From Methanobrevibacter thaueri (GTDB lineage: Archaea; Methanobacteriota; Methanobacteria; Methanobacteriales; Methanobacteriaceae), in NCBI GenBank assembly GCA_015062925.1, contig SUTL01000016.1, positions 1 through 32,786 on the forward strand: a stretch of DNA of 32,786 nt, in the 5' to 3' direction. The notes below the pieces were generated by a model. It ran no database searches and was not told the DNA's origin. It saw only the letters and a list, made by a program, of their open reading frames with translations. This document shows positions 1-26,415 of this stretch, piece by piece; positions within the stretch are counted from its first letter, which is position 1; every line of letters begins with the position of its first letter. The translations under genes were made by a program, and so were the position numbers.

Positions 1-3000
1 TCATCCCCATTATAAGTTAAAGTTGCTGTGTAAGTTTGAGGATCTAATTTTATTGTTGGTATTTTAATTTGACCATTTTTATCGGTGATGTATGTTTTAT
101 CACCCTTTAAATTAACACTTACACTAACATTAGTTAAAGGATTGTTAGCATTATCTTTTAGAGTAATTACAAGATCTTTGTTAATGTTATATATGGTAGT
201 AATTGGACTTGCAGTTAGTTCTGTTTTAATTTTATTTATTGTAATTTCTATTTCAGTAGAGTTTTTAGCATAAATTACACCATCACCAACACTAACAGTA
301 ATAATCGCACTACCCTCACCAACAGCAAAAACATTACCCAAATCATCAACTTTCACAACAGACTCATTACTAGAAGTAAAAGTCACATTCAAAACAACCG
401 GACTAGTAGTAACAACAATAGTACTATTAGAACCAATATTTAACTCCATACTACTAATATTAACATTAACAACTGCAGGTTTTGTTTCAACCTTATTCAC
501 AGTAATTTTCACTTCAGTAGAGTTTTTAGCATAAATTACACCATCACCAACACTAACAGTAATAATCGCACTACCCTCACCAACAGCAAAAACATTACCC
601 AATTCATCAACTTTCACAACAGACTCATTACTAGAAGTAAAAGTCACATTCAAAACAACCGGACTAGTAGTAACAACAATAGTAGTATTTGAATTAATAT
701 TTAATTCAATATTTGTAATATTAATATTTACAGTTGTATTGATTGGTTTTTTGGAAGTTATTATAATATCTGCATTTGTTGATGCATTATTATAATTATC
801 ATCTCCTGAGTATGTGATATATGCTGTAGTATTTTGAATTATACCTGGGATAATGAATGTAGCAGTTCCATTATTAATTGTGGTAATGTAAATTCCATTA
901 CCTATGCGTGCTGTGACATTACCTGTTGCTTTTATAAAACCAGTGACAATAATGGTGGCATTTTCACCAGTTTCAATTGGATTGGATTTAGCAATTAGCG
1001 TTAAGTTTTGTTTTGGAATAATGTTTTCATATACATTTACAAGGATTGTTTTTTCATCACCTTCATAGTCTTTATTTCCAGAAAATGAAATGGTAATATT
1101 TGCACTGCCTATTTGTTTAGCAATTATTTCTCCAGTTACAGAGTCAACATTAACTATGCTGGAATTGCTGCTTGTAAATATTACTTCATTAATATTGTCA
1201 GGTATTATTGTATAGTTAACTGTGGATGTTTGTCCAACAATTAAATTTATAATTTCATTAGTTGGTGTTATTTTTGATTTTAGTTTTAAGATATTTGAAG
1301 TGGCATTTGCTTTTGAATCATTATATATGTCATCTGAAAATGTGAATGTCCATGTGTATTCACCACTTGAATATTCATTATTTAATATTTCGATAATTAG
1401 TGTGTTATTTATTTTTTTACCGTTAATTACGTTTATTATTTCGCCATTGCTTATGGTTATGTTTCCTGTTGCATTTTCAGGTAATGTGATGATAAACATT
1501 ATTCCATTAGTATCATTGACTGTGATGTTTCTAGCAGTGATTTGCATGTTGGTTTCTAATTTTTTAACGGTTAATTTTCCACTAGCCTCCATACTTGAAA
1601 AGATTTCATTCCCTGAATAGATGACTGTAATATTATATTCATCAGGTTTAATATTTCCTAATGAAATTATTTTATTTAAATTTAAATCTGTGAATATATA
1701 ATTGAATTTTTTTCCTTTTAAGGTTATATTGAGTGTTCCATTGGCAGTGTTATTATAATTAAGAGTTATTGTTGTGTTGTTAGTATAGTTTAGTGTTTGA
1801 GAGTTGACTGTTAAGTTAGGATCTGCTTTTAAATCAAATTCTATAGTGTATGTTGTATTTTCTATTGTTGCAGTTATACTTCCGGTTTCAGTGTTTATTG
1901 CACTATATTTTATTGTTTCTCCTAATTTTGCAAAGTGTTTGTCAACTTTACCATTTGATGTGATTGTTAAATTAATATTTTTAAATGAATTATTATCATA
2001 TTCAGTGATTTTATCTGAAGTGGAATTATATAAGTATAATTTAAAGACAATTTCATTTGAACTTAATTTAGATTTTTCTGCACCTAAAAATAACCAGCAA
2101 TTAGCATTTATAGGTGATGTTTTATTATAATTTGTTTTATTATTTCCAAACCAATTATAATCTGCATTTAAATTATATTTAGTGAATATCATAACATTAT
2201 TAGTTTCAGCAGTGTTATTGAAAAAACTACAATCATAAACTTTAAGATTCAAACCGGTTGAATAGATTGCCCCACCAGTACCATTAGCAGTGTTATTTAT
2301 AAAAAGAGAATTTTTCAAAGTAAGATTATTATTTTCATTATAAATTGCACCTCCATTATTATCTGCAATATTTCCTATAAATATTCCTGATAAAATAGCA
2401 GTTTCATCTAATTTACAAATATAAAATGCTCCACCATGACTGCTTACATGATTATTTTTATAAATTCCGCTTACATTGGTGTTGTTAATTATTTTACCAA
2501 AGTAGTTTACACCACCATTCCATGCTGTGTTATTTTCGTAATTTCCAGATATTGTTGAATTAAATAGTTTACACCAAAAGTAATTTGCACCACCTTGATA
2601 TGCAGTATTGTTTATATATGTCCCATTTATAAAACTGTTATTTAATTCATAATTAAATGAATTAGCTCCCCCACCACTATAGGTCATTTTATTCTTAACA
2701 TGATTATTGATAAAAATACCATTTAAAGTAATATTTACTAAATTAGCACTATAAAATTGATTTACACCACCATCTTCATCTGCTGAATTATTAATATAAA
2801 AACCTAAAATATTGATATTAGATGAAATATGTCCCTCAAAAGAGTTTGCACCACCACAATAAGCAGAATTATTAATGTAACATCCAGTTAAAGTAGCATT
2901 ATTAAGACCATTGAAAAAGCAGTTTGCACCACCAGCACCAGTTGCTGAATTATTAATATAATTTCCTGAAATAGTAACATTTTTAAAATATTCTCCAGCA

Positions 3001-4439
3001 AAATAATTTACACCACCATTAACCTTATCAGTATCACCAAATGCACTATTATTAATATAATCCCCGGTTATAGTAGCATTAATAATTGAATTTCCAAAAT
3101 AGTTTGCAGCTCCTCCCCCATAGGTTAAAAGATACTGTTGATGTACAGTATTGTTAATATAACTTCCGGATAAAGTAAGATTATATACCTCCCTGTGGAA
3201 TACATTTGCACTTCCACCTTTAACTGAAGTATTATTTACAAAGTATCCTGTTATAATAATATTGGTCGCTGTTTTTTCAAAGGAGTTTGCACCACCCATG
3301 TTATCTACAATATTATTTATAAAGTTTCCAGTTATAGTAATATTATCTGCAGTATCCTGAAAATCATTTATTCCACCTTCCACACCAACATTATTGGTGA
3401 AGTTCCCACTTATATAAGCATTAATTACATTATTTTTAAATAAATTTACACCTCCAGCATTACTTGCACGATTATTTGAAAAAAATCCTGTTATAGTGAT
3501 GTTTGTTACAGATCCTATGAATTCATTTCCAGTATAAAATCCAGTATTGTTTATATAATTACCTTTCAAGGTTATATTGGTTAATGATTTTCTAAATTCA
3601 TTCATAGCACCTCCACCGTCTGCATAGTTAGCGATGAAATCAGCCAATATATTAACATTGGTTAGTTCCTTATCAAAGTAATTTGCACCACCATCACTAT
3701 ATAAACTATAAGCTCCATTATTGGAAAAAATTCCAGATATGTTAACATTATTAAGAGTTCCGTTGAAAAAGTTTGCTCCACCACCTATATATTTAGCATT
3801 TGCATAATTATTATTAAATATTCCATTTAATGTAACATTGTTTAAATTTCCATTAAAATAAATTGCACCACCATTTATAGCATTATTATTTCTAAATGTA
3901 GCATTAATTTGAGAGTTTACAAGATCATTGTTAAAGTAAATTGCTCCACCATATTCTGATTTTCCTTTTATAAAGGTTAATCCATCAATAAATATACTAT
4001 TTGAATTAATATTAAAAATCCTATTCTCATCTTTACCATTAAAAATTACTTCACCATCACCATATTTTTTAAGAATTAAATTATTCTGATTAATAGTTAA
4101 ATTAGTATTATTGTTTCCCATGTATTTTCCAGATGCAATCATAATAGTGTCCCCATCACTACACTGGGCAAGTGCATCTTTTAAATTCTTAAATGGTTTT
4201 TCTAAGCTTCCTTCATTATCTTGTGAAGTTGAATTAACATACCATATATTACCGGTAGTTAATTTATTTTCATTATTATAATCTATTGAAATGTTTTTAT
4301 CATTTATTGCAGTTTCCATATTGTTATGTTCATTATTTAATCCTATTGATGTATCATTTACATCACTAGCATATGTGCTGGTTATGGTGAATAATGAAAT
4401 TATTAGAATTAGTATAATTATGCTTTTTTTATATTTCAT
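1..4439 (-). CDS. giant secreted adhesin-like protein, beta-helix plus Ig-like repeats (3' end outside window)
   Basis: At least 1479 codons read without a stop from ATG 4439 to the window edge, so the C-terminus is missing. AGGTG lies upstream of the start. Residues 1-25 are a signal peptide (Lys-rich start, Ile/Leu core, TYA|S-type cleavage). Roughly residues 75-720 are Asn-rich units of about 25-35 residues carrying a recurring NN-(S/T)A-x-GGAN-x-F pattern, typical of a right-handed parallel beta-helix like polymorphic outer-membrane/adhesin repeats. The rest is Ig-like domains. The last ones match the Big_2 pattern (SSNESVVKVD, then GNVFAVGEGSA). Many N-x-S/T sequons suit archaeal N-glycosylation. 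It resembles the Asn/Thr-rich surface proteins of gut Methanobacteriales, which are thought to mediate cell or host contact. A cell-surface role is inferred from architecture; the ligand is unknown. The missing C-terminus probably holds the wall or membrane anchor. Confidence 0.9.
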   Translation of the reverse strand, partial: MKYKKSIIILILIISLFTITSTYASDVNDTSIGLNNEHNNMETAINDKNISIDYNNENKLTTGNIWYVNSTSQDNEGSLEKPFKNLKDALAQCSDGDTIMIASGKYMGNNNTNLTINQNNLILKKYGDGEVIFNGKDENRIFNINSNSIFIDGLTFIKGKSEYGGAIYFNNDLVNSQINATFRNNNAINGGAIYFNGNLNNVTLNGIFNNNYANAKYIGGGANFFNGTLNNVNISGIFSNNGAYSLYSDGGANYFDKELTNVNILADFIANYADGGGAMNEFRKSLTNITLKGNYINNTGFYTGNEFIGSVTNITITGFFSNNRASNAGGVNLFKNNVINAYISGNFTNNVGVEGGINDFQDTADNITITGNFINNIVDNMGGANSFEKTATNIIITGYFVNNTSVKGGSANVFHREVYNLTLSGSYINNTVHQQYLLTYGGGAANYFGNSIINATITGDYINNSAFGDTDKVNGGVNYFAGEYFKNVTISGNYINNSATGAGGANCFFNGLNNATLTGCYINNSAYCGGANSFEGHISSNINILGFYINNSADEDGGVNQFYSANLVNITLNGIFINNHVKNKMTYSGGGANSFNYELNNSFINGTYINNTAYQGGANYFWCKLFNSTISGNYENNTAWNGGVNYFGKIINNTNVSGIYKNNHVSSHGGAFYICKLDETAILSGIFIGNIADNNGGAIYNENNNLTLKNSLFINNTANGTGGAIYSTGLNLKVYDCSFFNNTAETNNVMIFTKYNLNADYNWFGNNKTNYNKTSPINANCWLFLGAEKSKLSSNEIVFKLYLYNSTSDKITEYDNNSFKNINLTITSNGKVDKHFAKLGETIKYSAINTETGSITATIENTTYTIEFDLKADPNLTVNSQTLNYTNNTTITLNYNNTANGTLNITLKGKKFNYIFTDLNLNKIISLGNIKPDEYNITVIYSGNEIFSSMEASGKLTVKKLETNMQITARNITVNDTNGIMFIITLPENATGNITISNGEIINVINGKKINNTLIIEILNNEYSSGEYTWTFTFSDDIYNDSKANATSNILKLKSKITPTNEIINLIVGQTSTVNYTIIPDNINEVIFTSSNSSIVNVDSVTGEIIAKQIGSANITISFSGNKDYEGDEKTILVNVYENIIPKQNLTLIAKSNPIETGENATIIVTGFIKATGNVTARIGNGIYITTINNGTATFIIPGIIQNTTAYITYSGDDNYNNASTNADIIITSKKPINTTVNINITNIELNINSNTTIVVTTSPVVLNVTFTSSNESVVKVDELGNVFAVGEGSAIITVSVGDGVIYAKNSTEVKITVNKVETKPAVVNVNISSMELNIGSNSTIVVTTSPVVLNVTFTSSNESVVKVDDLGNVFAVGEGSAIITVSVGDGVIYAKNSTEIEITINKIKTELTASPITTIYNINKDLVITLKDNANNPLTNVSVSVNLKGDKTYITDKNGQIKIPTIKLDPQTYTATLTYNGD
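252..684 (-). repeat. near-identical tandem Big_2 repeat units (261-nt period) inside the adhesin
   Basis: Bases 252-423 recur at 513-684 with one mismatch (342 against 603). The spacing is exactly 261 nt, or 87 codons, so the reading frame is kept. Each copy encodes most of one Big_2 Ig-like domain. The upstream Ig-like units in the same gene are much more diverged, so this pair is either a recent duplication or kept similar by gene conversion. Confidence 0.9.
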
Positions 4440-5089: not shown

Positions 5090-5956
5090 TCACATTAAAA
5101 TCATAGATTGAATAATTTTTTGAGCATCATTAGATTTTAAATCCCCAATTTTTTTCAACTGCTCTATTTTACTCTTATATGAATTAATTTCATCATCCTT
5201 AGATTTAATTTCATCATCTTTTTGTTTGAGAATGTCTCCAAATTCTTCGTATACAATTTTTGTCATTTCATCATCAATCTCTTTCACATTAATCACATCC
5301 AATAGTTCTTTTATTTTTTTATGTGAGGTTATACGTTTTGATATCATGGCACATATTATTGCTCCTATGTCGATTTTTAATTTTTTATCAGGGATTTTTG
5401 CATCTTTAAATATGTATGTTATTGTTTCTATGACTTTTGGTGCTTTTTTTGAGGAAATGAATTTGCATATGAATGCAAGATCCATTGCCTCAGTGTCTGT
5501 TAATATTTGTTTTTGTTTTACTTTATTAATAACATTTTCATATTTTTTGCATAATTCTTCCTGTGGGAAATAGTGATAGTGTATTTTTATATAGCATGAT
5601 GGTGCGTATTCGTAGCATTCATAATCTGATTTTGGTTTTTTGTGACATATGACTCCAAGATATACTTCTTTTGGGTAGTGCTGGTAGCTTAGAAAGATTA
5701 CATATTTTGCGAATTTTTTCAATGTGTCAGGAGATATTTCACCACTTTCCTCTTCAAGATCAATGACCCATCCTTCATCAGTTTGATATACCTCATCCAT
5801 TCTCCCACCATCCATGTTTCTAAAAACAATTTCCTGAGGATATCTCTGTTTAAATTCCCCTGGTAAATTCAGATATTGGTGCTGTCTTTTTGATTGAGCG
5901 TAAGACAAATATTTATGAGTCTTATCATTTAAATGATGCATATTTTTATTTTTCAT
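5090..5956 (-). CDS. PD-(D/E)XK / Rpn-like nuclease-family protein with C-terminal coiled coil
   Basis: A 288-residue protein. Residues 50-75 carry D54-E55, a short strand, then D66-L-E68-E-E70-S, which resembles the core of Rpn-type (recombination-promoting nuclease/transposase-like) PD-(D/E)XK proteins, although the usual catalytic Lys or Gln is replaced by Glu. Residues 75-215 are mixed helix and strand, with a Lys-rich helical region from 130. Residues 235-270 are a charged coiled coil with near-repeats of KDDEI, ending in SNDAQKIIQSM. Rpn-like families are numerous in gut methanogens and often multicopy, which fits the degenerate partial copy just downstream. A nuclease role is inferred from fold only, and activity is doubtful without the Lys. 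An alternative is a structural or regulatory relative of transposase-associated proteins. Confidence 0.55.
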   Translation of the reverse strand: MKNKNMHHLNDKTHKYLSYAQSKRQHQYLNLPGEFKQRYPQEIVFRNMDGGRMDEVYQTDEGWVIDLEEESGEISPDTLKKFAKYVIFLSYQHYPKEVYLGVICHKKPKSDYECYEYAPSCYIKIHYHYFPQEELCKKYENVINKVKQKQILTDTEAMDLAFICKFISSKKAPKVIETITYIFKDAKIPDKKLKIDIGAIICAMISKRITSHKKIKELLDVINVKEIDDEMTKIVYEEFGDILKQKDDEIKSKDDEINSYKSKIEQLKKIGDLKSNDAQKIIQSMILM

Positions 5957-9888: not shown

Positions 9889-10560
9889 TTATTGTCTCCA
9901 GGATTTTAATTTGTATAAAGCTTGTTTTGATGATGCTTGTTCTGCATCTTTTTTATTTCTTCCTTTTCCAATGCCCATTTCTTTATTGTTGATTAGGCAG
10001 GATATTATGAATGTTTTGTCGTGTGGTACACCATATTCTTTTAGTATTTTGTATTCTATGTTTAGGTTGTTTGCATCACAGTATTCTTTTATGTGTGATT
10101 TGTAGTCTTCAAAGAATATTTTATCTTCGTCAATGTATTTGAATATTGTGTTTGATATGAATTTTTTTGTAAATTCAATGCCTTGGTCAAGAAATATTGC
10201 TCCGGTGAATGATTCAAATATGTCTGCAGTTATTGATAGTATTTCGTTTTTTGTGAGGTTTGATTCTTCTACAGCTACTTGGAGGTATTGTTGGAGGTTT
10301 AGTTTGTGTGAGTAGTGTATTAGTGCGTTTTGGCATACGAAGTTTGATCTTTTTTTGGATAGTGGTCCTTCTTCGTATTCAGGGTATTTTTTGTAGAGGT
10401 ATTCTGATACGATTAGGTTTAGTATTGAGTCTCCCAGGAATTCTAGTCGTTCGTAGTTGTAGTTTAGGTTGTGTAGTGTTGCGTATGAGGCGTGTGTGAA
10501 TGCTGTTTTGTATAGTTGTTTGTTGTTTGGTTTTATGTTAAATTTTTCGTATATATCCAT
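9889..10560 (-). CDS. rnc: ribonuclease III
   Basis: 223 residues, the normal bacterial length. The signature ERLEFLGDS spans 37-45, with catalytic Glu40 and Asp44 and the second acidic pair Asp113 and Glu116 in ADIFESFTGA. Residues about 150-220 form a double-stranded RNA binding domain ending in KKDAEQASSKQAL. It cleaves double-stranded RNA in rRNA and mRNA processing. RNase III is rare in archaea but has been reported in some gut Methanobacteriales, which suggests acquisition from bacteria. It is the first gene of the rnc-metX-azlCD run. The stop is immediately followed by the metX ATG. Confidence 0.93.
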   Translation of the reverse strand: MDIYEKFNIKPNNKQLYKTAFTHASYATLHNLNYNYERLEFLGDSILNLIVSEYLYKKYPEYEEGPLSKKRSNFVCQNALIHYSHKLNLQQYLQVAVEESNLTKNEILSITADIFESFTGAIFLDQGIEFTKKFISNTIFKYIDEDKIFFEDYKSHIKEYCDANNLNIEYKILKEYGVPHDKTFIISCLINNKEMGIGKGRNKKDAEQASSKQALYKLKSWRQ

Positions 10561-10613
10561 TTTTTACGCCTGTTTTTTTATTTTTTTGTAATGTTTATAG
10601 TTTTGATTTTTGA

Positions 10614-10652
10614 GTTATATATAATTATTATATAACATTTGTTATAAATGTT
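10614..10652. promoter_or_regulatory. divergent promoter region with operator-like inverted repeat
   Basis: Between the divergent rnc and 10735 genes lies a near-palindrome, GTTATATA to TATATAAC-like (10614-10636), able to serve as a TATA box on both strands. Immediately after it, AACATTT (10634-10640) and AAATGTT (10646-10652) form a perfect 7-bp inverted repeat with a 5-nt spacer. The overlap of TATA and inverted repeat is what a repressor operator would look like. No matching regulator is in the window. Confidence 0.4.
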
Positions 10653-10734
10653 AGTTTTCAAACGCTCTTACAAAAACCAGAAAATATACTACCCCCAATA
10701 ATATAAATTAACTAAAAAAAAGGAATGATAAAAA

Positions 10735-11070
10735 ATGATAATCAACTGGCAAAAAGAAATAACAAAAATAGACCCCGACATAAAATTCAGACTCCACGGA
10801 GGATGGTTAAAAACAATAACAGAACTAGATAAAACCGTGAAAAACGGATACTCACTAGTAGGGGACTTCGTAAAAGCAGGAGACTTCGAAGAAGAATACA
10901 GCGAAGGAATATACCTTGACTGCAACAAAGAAGGAACCAGTAAAAAAACACAACAAGACTACAGACTATTCAGATTCAAAAACAACGAAGTAAGACTACT
11001 CGACATGGTAATAGATGGAAAACAAGGCTGGGCACCACAACTATGGGATGCACTGGAAGGAGAACTATAA
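10735..11070 (+). CDS. conserved small protein of unknown function
   Basis: 111 residues, soluble, no signal peptide or membrane segment. The composition is normal for the genome, with alternating short strands and charged helices: IINWQKEITKIDPD at the start, then RLHGGWLKTITEL, and GWAPQLWDALEGEL at the end. A clear ribosome binding site, GGAATGAT, lies 5 nt before the ATG. It is transcribed divergently from rnc and converges on the 11078 gene with a 7-nt gap. I do not recognise a family with known function. The Trp-containing motifs and compact size suggest a folded enzyme-associated or binding protein. Confidence 0.75.
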   Translation: MIINWQKEITKIDPDIKFRLHGGWLKTITELDKTVKNGYSLVGDFVKAGDFEEEYSEGIYLDCNKEGTSKKTQQDYRLFRFKNNEVRLLDMVIDGKQGWAPQLWDALEGEL

Positions 11071-18153: not shown

Positions 18154-19011
18154 TTAAAAAGAAAAAGATTTAAACCAATCCAAAAATGAATCCAGGGAAA
18201 AACCATCCCCAGAACCAGTATCATTTAAAAAACCACTAACCTGATCCTTATAATAATTAACATCACCCTGAACATTCTGAACCTGCTCAATAGTATCAGC
18301 CAACTTATCAATATCATTATTAGTAATATTAATATTCTTATTATCAGCATAATTATTAATAATATTCACAATAGAATCATGATCAGACACATTACCACGG
18401 GAAACCTCATTCTTAACATCATCCACAAGACCGGACAAATCATCAGCATCAACACCAGAATTATTAATAATTTCAGCCTGAGTATAAATCTCATCATTAG
18501 CAGCTTCTTTAACATTATCCGGAATCTCAACATCAGTAGCCTGCTCATAAGCATTCATAATACCTGCAAGAGCAGACTCACCAGTAGCACTCACAGGACT
18601 AGTAACATAAACATGACCGGAAGTAATACCTGCAGATTTCAAGGAAGAAATATACATATCCCCGGTAATAGTAGTAATCTTAGACTTATCCACACTAACC
18701 TCCAAATTATCATTATCATTCAAATCAAGAAATGCAGAAGAATAAATCTGATTAGAAGAATAAGATTTACCAGTAATACCCTGAGAAACACTATTAACCA
18801 TATCTGCACTAATCACCTTACTTTCCACATCACCTAAATCAACATTAGTTTGAGATTTGAAAAAATCATCAACCATACTTTTATAATTGGAATTTCCATA
18901 AGTGGTTTCACCATAAGTTACAACAAGATTGGAATCAGCTGAAAAACCAACCGGCAACAACATACCTATAACAACAAAACCCAACAATAACATAATAAAC
19001 TTATTATCCAT
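18154..19011 (-). CDS. DUF1002 family secreted protein (paralogue A)
   Basis: About 285 residues. Residues 1-25 are a signal peptide ending near GFSA. The DUF1002 hallmarks follow: VVTYGETT after the signal, then ITTITGDMYISSLKSAGIT, GHVYVTSPV(S), ESALAGIMNAYEQAT, and a helical C-terminal third. DUF1002 proteins are secreted proteins of unknown function in Firmicutes and methanogens. ATG 19011 is chosen because GGAGG lies 8 nt upstream; the ATG five codons earlier overlaps that site. The downstream neighbour is the acidic-repeat protein and the upstream one, 19033, is its paralogue. Codon use matches the surroundings. Confidence 0.8.
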   Translation of the reverse strand: MDNKFIMLLLGFVVIGMLLPVGFSADSNLVVTYGETTYGNSNYKSMVDDFFKSQTNVDLGDVESKVISADMVNSVSQGITGKSYSSNQIYSSAFLDLNDNDNLEVSVDKSKITTITGDMYISSLKSAGITSGHVYVTSPVSATGESALAGIMNAYEQATDVEIPDNVKEAANDEIYTQAEIINNSGVDADDLSGLVDDVKNEVSRGNVSDHDSIVNIINNYADNKNINITNNDIDKLADTIEQVQNVQGDVNYYKDQVSGFLNDTGSGDGFSLDSFLDWFKSFSF

Positions 19012-19032
19012 AAATAAAACCTCCATTATTTT

Positions 19033-19866
19033 TTATTTAATTATATTATAAAGTGAATATTCATCAGTACAACTTCCACCACTGAAATCAGAAATACGAA
19101 GCATATAATCCCTCGCATCATCCCTCTGCATATTCACAAACAAAATCATACTCGAAAGACTATCAACATCCTCCTCACATAAAGATAAATTATCCTTAAC
19201 CACACTCTTATTAATCAACTTAACCATATCATCATAAGTACTTATATTATCCTTAACACTCTCCTTTTTAACATCCTCAACCAGATTAATCAAATCCTTC
19301 TTACTGACATTAGAATTTTCAAGAATACTGGCCTCAACACTAATTTCACAAATAACCGCTTTTTTAACATCCCCAGGAATTTCCATATTAGTAACAGACT
19401 CATAAGAATTTAAAATCTCACCTAAAGCCATCACACCATTATCCTCAACAGGACTGGTAATGAAAACCCTACCATAAGTTATACCGGCAGACCTTAGAGC
19501 AGACTCCAACATATCCGAATCAACCAAAGTAATTTTAGATGAATCAACAACAACATCCAAATCATTAGTATCATTCAAATCCGCAAGAACAGTAGTGAAA
19601 ATCTGATCACGAGAAAAACTCTCATTAAAAACACTACCATACAAATCATTAATATCCTTTGAAGTCATAATCTTATTATTAGTACTACCCACATCAACAT
19701 GAGCATGATTAACAAAATAATCATTAACAATACCTTTATACTCCAAATTAGACTGAGTAGTCTCACCATAAGTAATAACCACCGAATCAGAATCATTACC
19801 AAAACCAACCGGCAATACTAAACAAACAATGATTAAAAACATACATAATACATGAATTCTAGACAT
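19033..19866 (-). CDS. DUF1002 family secreted protein (paralogue B)
   Basis: 277 residues. Similar layout to the adjacent paralogue: signal peptide about 1-23, VVITYGETT, ITLVDSDMLESALRSAGIT, GRVFITSPV, MALGEILNSYES, and a helical C-terminal region. The two share an organisation but only moderate identity, so this is an old tandem duplication. GGAGGTGG lies upstream of the ATG with a longer spacing (about 10 nt). The gap to paralogue A is small (about 21 nt from its start), so they probably share a transcript. Function unknown; both are predicted outside the membrane. Confidence 0.78.
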   Translation of the reverse strand: MSRIHVLCMFLIIVCLVLPVGFGNDSDSVVITYGETTQSNLEYKGIVNDYFVNHAHVDVGSTNNKIMTSKDINDLYGSVFNESFSRDQIFTTVLADLNDTNDLDVVVDSSKITLVDSDMLESALRSAGITYGRVFITSPVEDNGVMALGEILNSYESVTNMEIPGDVKKAVICEISVEASILENSNVSKKDLINLVEDVKKESVKDNISTYDDMVKLINKSVVKDNLSLCEEDVDSLSSMILFVNMQRDDARDYMLRISDFSGGSCTDEYSLYNIIK

Positions 19867-25895: not shown

Positions 25896-26415
25896 AAAAA
25901 TCCCTTTAGTATTGTCATTATTATAACAATATATTAACATGATTATTTAATTATTGTGGACATGCATTTATCAAAATATACATATTTGCTTAATATAAAA
26001 AACTAAATAGAAAAATTTAACAAATTTCCCTGTTCATCCTGTGTTCAAATCATGACCCTAATTTATTTACAAATGTTTTATATAGGATATTAATATAATA
26101 ATATAAACAAGAGGTTTAAACCTCCACAATTAGAAGATAATTCTAATTGGCCGAAATTCAATGCGGTAAAAATCAATATCATTGTGTTAAATTGTAGAAT
26201 TCCATTTTCTACAATTGATATTGATTATAAATCTAGTTTTATACATATTTTTCTTAATTATCCAAAATATTTCATCTGCCGAAAGCATCACTACCTAAAT
26301 TAGTTTACAAGCTTAGATTTTTTTAATAATTTACTATTTTCAACATGAACCTATATTTTCAATACCCCCAATGTATTACTTCTTTGAAATTATTTTTTTT
26401 TTGATTCTATAATAA
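25896..26415. other. intergenic stretch of 520 bp holding a candidate RNA gene
   Basis: Apart from the helicase leader (the frame remains open to 25940 but without homology) and the structured element at 26076-26235, the sequence is AT-rich with no coding frame. The last 180 bases, 26236-26415, show nothing beyond T-rich tracts and the end of the 26416 gene. Confidence 0.5.
26076..26235 (+). ncRNA. candidate promoter-driven structured non-coding RNA
   Basis: TTTTATATA at 26076-26084 is an excellent archaeal TATA box; a start about 25 nt later would be near 26105. The predicted transcript then carries in order a perfect 14-bp palindrome (GAGGTTTAAACCTC, 26111-26124), an 8-bp hairpin (AATTAGAA 26128-26135, TTCTAATT 26141-26148, 5-nt loop), a short CCG/CGG pair (26151, 26164), and a long two-part stem: AATCAATATC (26171-26180) with GATATTGATT (26217-26226) enclosing AATTGTAGAA (26190-26199) with TTCTACAATT (26207-26216). 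T-rich DNA follows at 26236-26260. No open frame is present. Family unknown; the strand is inferred from the TATA box. Confidence 0.55.

Follow-up and report, generated by a model that had tools for sequence, protein, structure and literature searches.

An orphan antitoxin-like RNA, predicted from sequence, in the methanogen Methanobrevibacter

We analysed a stretch of 32,786 nucleotides from a Methanobrevibacter genome (contig SUTL01000016.1, hereafter the window). A gene for a UvrD helicase and PD-(D/E)XK nuclease (the helicase-nuclease gene) lies on the opposite strand, and a gene for a NADAR domain protein lies nearby. The intergenic DNA between these neighbours carries a TATA-like box, TTTTATATA, followed 24-27 nt downstream by the predicted start of a hairpin-rich element and then by a T-rich tail (Table 1). 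No ORF of 80 aa or more overlaps this element and it includes no tRNA. Its predicted fold has a minimum free energy of -35.6 kcal/mol, against -16.0 +/- 3.1 for dinucleotide shuffles (z = -6.35, 0/200). Over the larger interval 26076-26235 the z-score is -5.43. The word TTTATATA alone is not evidence of a promoter, since it occurs 17 times in this AT-rich window where 12 are expected, but the homologs described below conserve it at the same distance. Searches against Rfam 15, at the gathering score and at E <= 10, gave only chance matches. Elsewhere in the window we noticed an RNase III with a dsRNA-binding domain, and a tandem duplication of two clearly similar secreted-type proteins (290 and 277 aa).

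Table 1. Features of the window, and of loci in other contigs mentioned in the text (C, contig; G, genome; L, locus).
Sequence	Positions	Strand	Feature	Observations
Window	9889-10560	-	RNase III with dsRNA-binding domain	
Window	18154-19866	-	Two adjacent similar secreted-type proteins	
Window	25940 or 25895 (start)	-	Helicase-nuclease gene	
Window	26025-26075	+	Remnant of the conserved stretch that in complete modules lies between peptide ORF and RNA promoter	DNA homology to the complete module begins at 26025
Window	26076-26084	+	TATA box of the RNA promoter	Conserved as TTTATATA at the same distance in homologs
Window	26105-26226	+	Antitoxin-like small RNA (predicted transcript body)	Covariance model match of 102.5 bits over 26110-26230
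Window	26111-26124	+	Hairpin 1, GAGGT/ACCTC	All 5 pairs show changes on both sides
Window	26127-26149	+	Hairpin 2, 9 bp	All 7 modelled pairs show changes on both sides
Window	26150-26170	+	Hypervariable linker, antisense (targeting) stretch	Predicted target TTTACCGCATTGAATTTCGGC beside a Shine-Dalgarno
Window	26171-26226	+	Hairpin 3	Outer stem (11 bp) 26171-26181/26216-26226; one-sided bulge (9 nt) 26182-26190; inner stem (9 bp) 26191-26199/26207-26215
Window	26227-26254	+	T-rich tail, probable transcription end	Tail also placed at 26236-26254; T-rich tails follow homologs too
Same genome, contig C7 (L232)	5529-5591	-	Complete module of the second type	
G018, contig C29 (L044)	2957-3109		Apparent inversion product	
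L031	6959-7077		Family member with hairpin-2 loop AGGTGATAA	
G029, contig C17 (L032)	around 10525-10761		Two similar short ORFs beside a solo RNA copy	

The element belongs to a family. A DNA search of 67 genomes of the same genus found full-length relatives at 70-79% identity, and several genomes had more than one. The hosts are Methanobrevibacter species, mostly represented by animal-gut metagenome assemblies. A covariance model built from 12 copies found the RNA in 23 of the 67 same-genus genomes and, in diverged form, in 8 genomes of one sister genus, all Methanobacteriaceae, whereas nothing reached E <= 0.01 in the other genera of the order. In an alignment of 33 copies, 24 of 32 base pairs change on both sides in at least one sequence. 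In this alignment 96.4% of the cells pair, against 81.7% when shuffled and 32-46% when slid by 1-3 columns, and the covariation is 0.406, against 0.156 when shuffled and at most 0.083 when slid. The alignment fitted to the covariance model favours its own structure, but an independent MAFFT alignment of 12 copies also covaries, less strongly because the copies are closer. Further subfamilies have different stem sequences in the same architecture, e.g., ACAATACCTA/TAGGTATTGT in place of AATCAATATC/GATATTGATT. Exact-pattern hits in viral contigs and bacteria were not family members, and phages and plasmids gave no match. In the window's own genome, weak DNA matches on three other contigs (C82, C12 and C143) appear to lie in protein-coding sequence, and the model gave nothing convincing there.

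The first-pass annotation had proposed that this region is an unrecognised structured non-coding RNA, and its observation is confirmed and this interpretation supported: the homologous regions conserve the pairings and the promoter. It had left open whether the element was a free sRNA, an RNA part of one of the neighbouring systems, or a palindromic protein-binding array. The homologs have other neighbours, and the element is neither part of the helicase or TPR/NADAR systems nor a protein-binding array. Our analyses point instead to an antisense sRNA belonging to a small peptide gene that is missing at this locus. The first-pass annotation had not noticed the linker between hairpins 2 and 3, which would be the functional part.

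In most homologs a conserved unit lies about 250 nt upstream on the same strand. It has its own TATA box, a strong Shine-Dalgarno (SD), a leader ORF (ORF1, often 23-65 aa) and, overlapping it, a second ORF (ORF2) with its own GGAGG-type SD. ORF2 encodes 30-33 aa with a strongly hydrophobic segment (best 15-residue Kyte-Doolittle mean mostly 1.8-3.2, lowest 1.63). It mostly starts about 250-290 nt before hairpin 1, even where no sequence similarity remains, and the predicted RNA of about 120 nt begins about 150-190 nt after its stop. The peptides fall in two main sequence groups, MESEVSIAVTVDLTHILDIICMMVLLYIFL-like and MSIQSKIWLALVVYLIYLWCMAFIIIMIVYKLL-like, neither of which is known to Pfam or NCBIfam.

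To understand the relation between the two units, we scanned each RNA against its own upstream region. The hypervariable linker between hairpins 2 and 3 is complementary to the mRNA directly 5' of, and often into, the SD of ORF2. The unbroken complementary stretch is typically 9-17 nt, and 11-17 nt in many loci (0/60 shuffles in the best). Using the same two windows of sequence in 25 loci, cognate duplexes averaged -20.1 kcal/mol and non-cognate ones -8.8, and none of 20,000 permutations reached the observed sum. Most RNAs ranked their own target first, several exceptions being near-identical loci, although some loci (G018a, G003) showed weak cognate pairing and related loci are not independent replicates. 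We had first considered a pairing of hairpin 1 (CCUCC) with the SD and of the hairpin-2 loop AGGTGATAA with a downstream TTATCACCT site. This fits part of the family but is not general, whereas the linker is the general rule. The same loop, found in several family members, is complementary by eye to a conserved TTATCACC(T) site in the 3' part of the peptide mRNA; this is possibly a second contact or a resemblance to a Shine-Dalgarno, and the window copy has lost it.

Since the sequence windows of this test were chosen after the initial scan, we also tested loci found from the peptide side. A profile of the second peptide group hit 41 of the 139 genomes of the family. At the new loci examined, an RNA-like region with a matching linker lies about 295 nt after the ORF2 start (permutation 0/20000); one row of this test (G023b) was cut at a wrong coordinate and should be ignored, and related targets raise the background. 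In a complete single-contig genome (G089) all three peptide loci have a matching RNA, e.g., TTATTGTTTTATTCAATT against AATTGAATAAAACAATAA. Linkers of different loci are unrelated to each other, so this is compensatory evolution of an sRNA with its target, i.e., direct, though computational, evidence for base-pairing at the ribosome-binding site of the peptide.

Some loci depart from the usual layout. In one (L044) the peptide ORF now lies on the opposite strand, with its SD region running into the RNA linker in a cis-antisense layout. Linker and target are inverted repeats in the DNA, so recombination between them could flip the segment. Two loci (L072 and L071, in genomes G019 and G020) share a one-base deletion that frameshifts ORF2, while the RNA and its linker/target match stay intact. 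Another (L215, genome G061, contig C31) has two peptide genes in tandem with identical ribosome-binding sites, and only the second one's RNA linker matches well. Finally, a solo RNA copy in genome G029 (L032) sits beside two similar short ORFs starting M(I/L)FVPKK(R/K), which resemble a duplicated small antitoxin-like protein.

In the window, the homology to the complete module starts just upstream of the RNA promoter, and the peptide unit is missing. The target predicted by the window linker, TTTACCGCATTGAATTTCGGC, was not found in this genome at up to 3 mismatches, and no partial match lies beside a Shine-Dalgarno. No target was found in the window either. The search of the family gave no convincing target: apart from the locus itself there were only 3-mismatch hits in 7 genomes, close to the control read backwards. 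The window's own gene starts and the peptide on contig C7 paired only weakly (best -13.2 kcal/mol, below cognate level). No peptide of the first group was found, but the assembly is 86.8% complete and a target on missing DNA cannot be excluded. Interestingly, the same genome holds one complete module of the second type on contig C7, with a leader ORF, the peptide MSIHEKIWIVIVLYMTYLFCMELLSSTLITKSL, and a downstream RNA whose linker TTTTAATTTAAATTCTT matches AAGAATTTAAATTAAAA beside the SD over 17 nt. We therefore call the window copy an orphan antitoxin-like RNA, not a toxin-antitoxin module, and its antitoxin role rests on homology.

The simplest reading of the family is translational repression of a membrane peptide, which is the logic of a type I antitoxin. 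The linker would pair with the mRNA directly upstream of and into the SD of the peptide, so that the ribosome cannot start, and since linker and target have diverged together at each locus, each RNA would silence its own peptide. We are fairly confident that the window element is the RNA half of such a type I-like module in an orphaned state, although transcription, the translational block and the toxicity of the peptide are inferred. Toxicity is suggested by size, hydrophobicity and genomic behaviour. Cleavage of the duplex by RNase III is possible, given the one encoded in the window, but this is speculation. The window copy may be either a fairly recent leftover or, more interestingly, a solo antitoxin that would neutralise an incoming matching toxin.

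The main alternatives concern the peptide and the fate of the window copy. The base-pairing evidence says nothing about toxicity and the peptides match no known toxin family, so the RNA might repress a membrane microprotein with a physiological role, for example in stress signalling or in modulating a transporter. We regard this as unlikely, because a patchy distribution, tandem and multiple copies per genome, loci where the peptide is lost or frameshifted and the RNA kept, and rapidly diverging pair specificity are typical of addiction-type modules rather than of a housekeeping microprotein. It remains possible, though we do not favour it, that the window copy is a decaying relic without function, left when the helicase-nuclease gene and its flank replaced the peptide unit. 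The absence of a detected target, the point where module homology stops, and the hairpin-2 loop, which is AGAAGATAAT in place of the family's AGGTGATAAT, are consistent with this. Yet all helices and the promoter are intact, and the copy scores higher than many that do have a peptide. Other solo copies also keep promoter and structure (e.g., G021c, G029a and G029b), and the solo RNA of genome G015 would pair with the peptide mRNA of another species at cognate strength (-22.1 kcal/mol). This favours an anti-addiction role for solo copies over simple decay, without proving it.

Two further readings are very unlikely. In a CreTA-like (type VIII) system the RNA would guide a CRISPR effector to repress a toxic small transcript whose strong Shine-Dalgarno ties up ribosomes, and ORF1 indeed has a very strong SD. 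However, the complementarity lies at the SD of ORF2 and not at the promoter, the RNA is not repeat-spacer-repeat, ORF2 is a conserved peptide sequence, and no cas genes were noticed in the neighbourhoods surveyed, although CRISPR arrays and cas genes were not searched for. A palindromic DNA-binding array or miniature mobile element would account for the perfect inverted repeats and for the multiple copies in different contexts. It does not fit with the asymmetric conserved bulge, the single-strand-specific complementarity of the linker to an mRNA site, the promoter at fixed distance, and the changes on both sides in all helices. No transposon-like ends or target-site duplications were seen, albeit without a systematic search.

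By mechanism, the closest systems seem to be the bacterial type I pairs ShoB/OhsC and ZorO/OrzO of E. coli, where a separately transcribed sRNA beside the gene of a tiny hydrophobic peptide appears to have a short complementarity (about 18-20 nt) to the 5' part of the toxin mRNA rather than a full overlap. Those pairs are divergent, whereas here both units run on the same strand, the RNA has a fixed three-hairpin frame with the targeting stretch in a linker, and the host is an archaeon. The leader ORF overlapping the peptide ORF recalls mok and hok in Hok/Sok, where an antisense RNA blocks translation and toxin translation may be coupled to the leader. Sok, however, appears to be encoded on the opposite strand, overlapping the leader, whereas here the RNA lies downstream in tandem and pairs at the peptide's own SD. 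CreTA of Haloarcula hispanica (PMC12737573) is also archaeal and also has an RNA antitoxin with a short stretch complementary to its own toxin locus, but CreA needs Cascade and targets the toxin promoter DNA, and its toxin is an RNA. The sRNA162 of Methanosarcina mazei (PMC3510493) is a methanogen sRNA that pairs with mRNAs, but it is not linked to a toxin-like peptide gene.

Type I toxin-antitoxin systems had been reported only from Proteobacteria, Firmicutes and Tenericutes, with Cyanobacteria added in 2025 (PMC12390103), and we found no report of one in Archaea in the open-access literature searched. It is possible, if slightly less likely than not, that these modules, widespread in two genera of Methanobacteriaceae and with re-programmable targeting linkers of about 15 nt in a fixed RNA frame, are the first type I system in Archaea, and that solo copies such as the one in the window act as anti-addiction antitoxins against incoming modules. 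The analysis also shows a way to find such systems without similarity to known ones, by looking for a hypervariable linker in a covarying RNA that matches a nearby ribosome-binding site. A family in Methanobrevibacter, the main methane producers of the rumen and gut, would carry the class into a second domain of life, give a natural set of orthogonal sRNA/target pairs with co-evolving specificity, and name small peptides that may stop methanogen growth.
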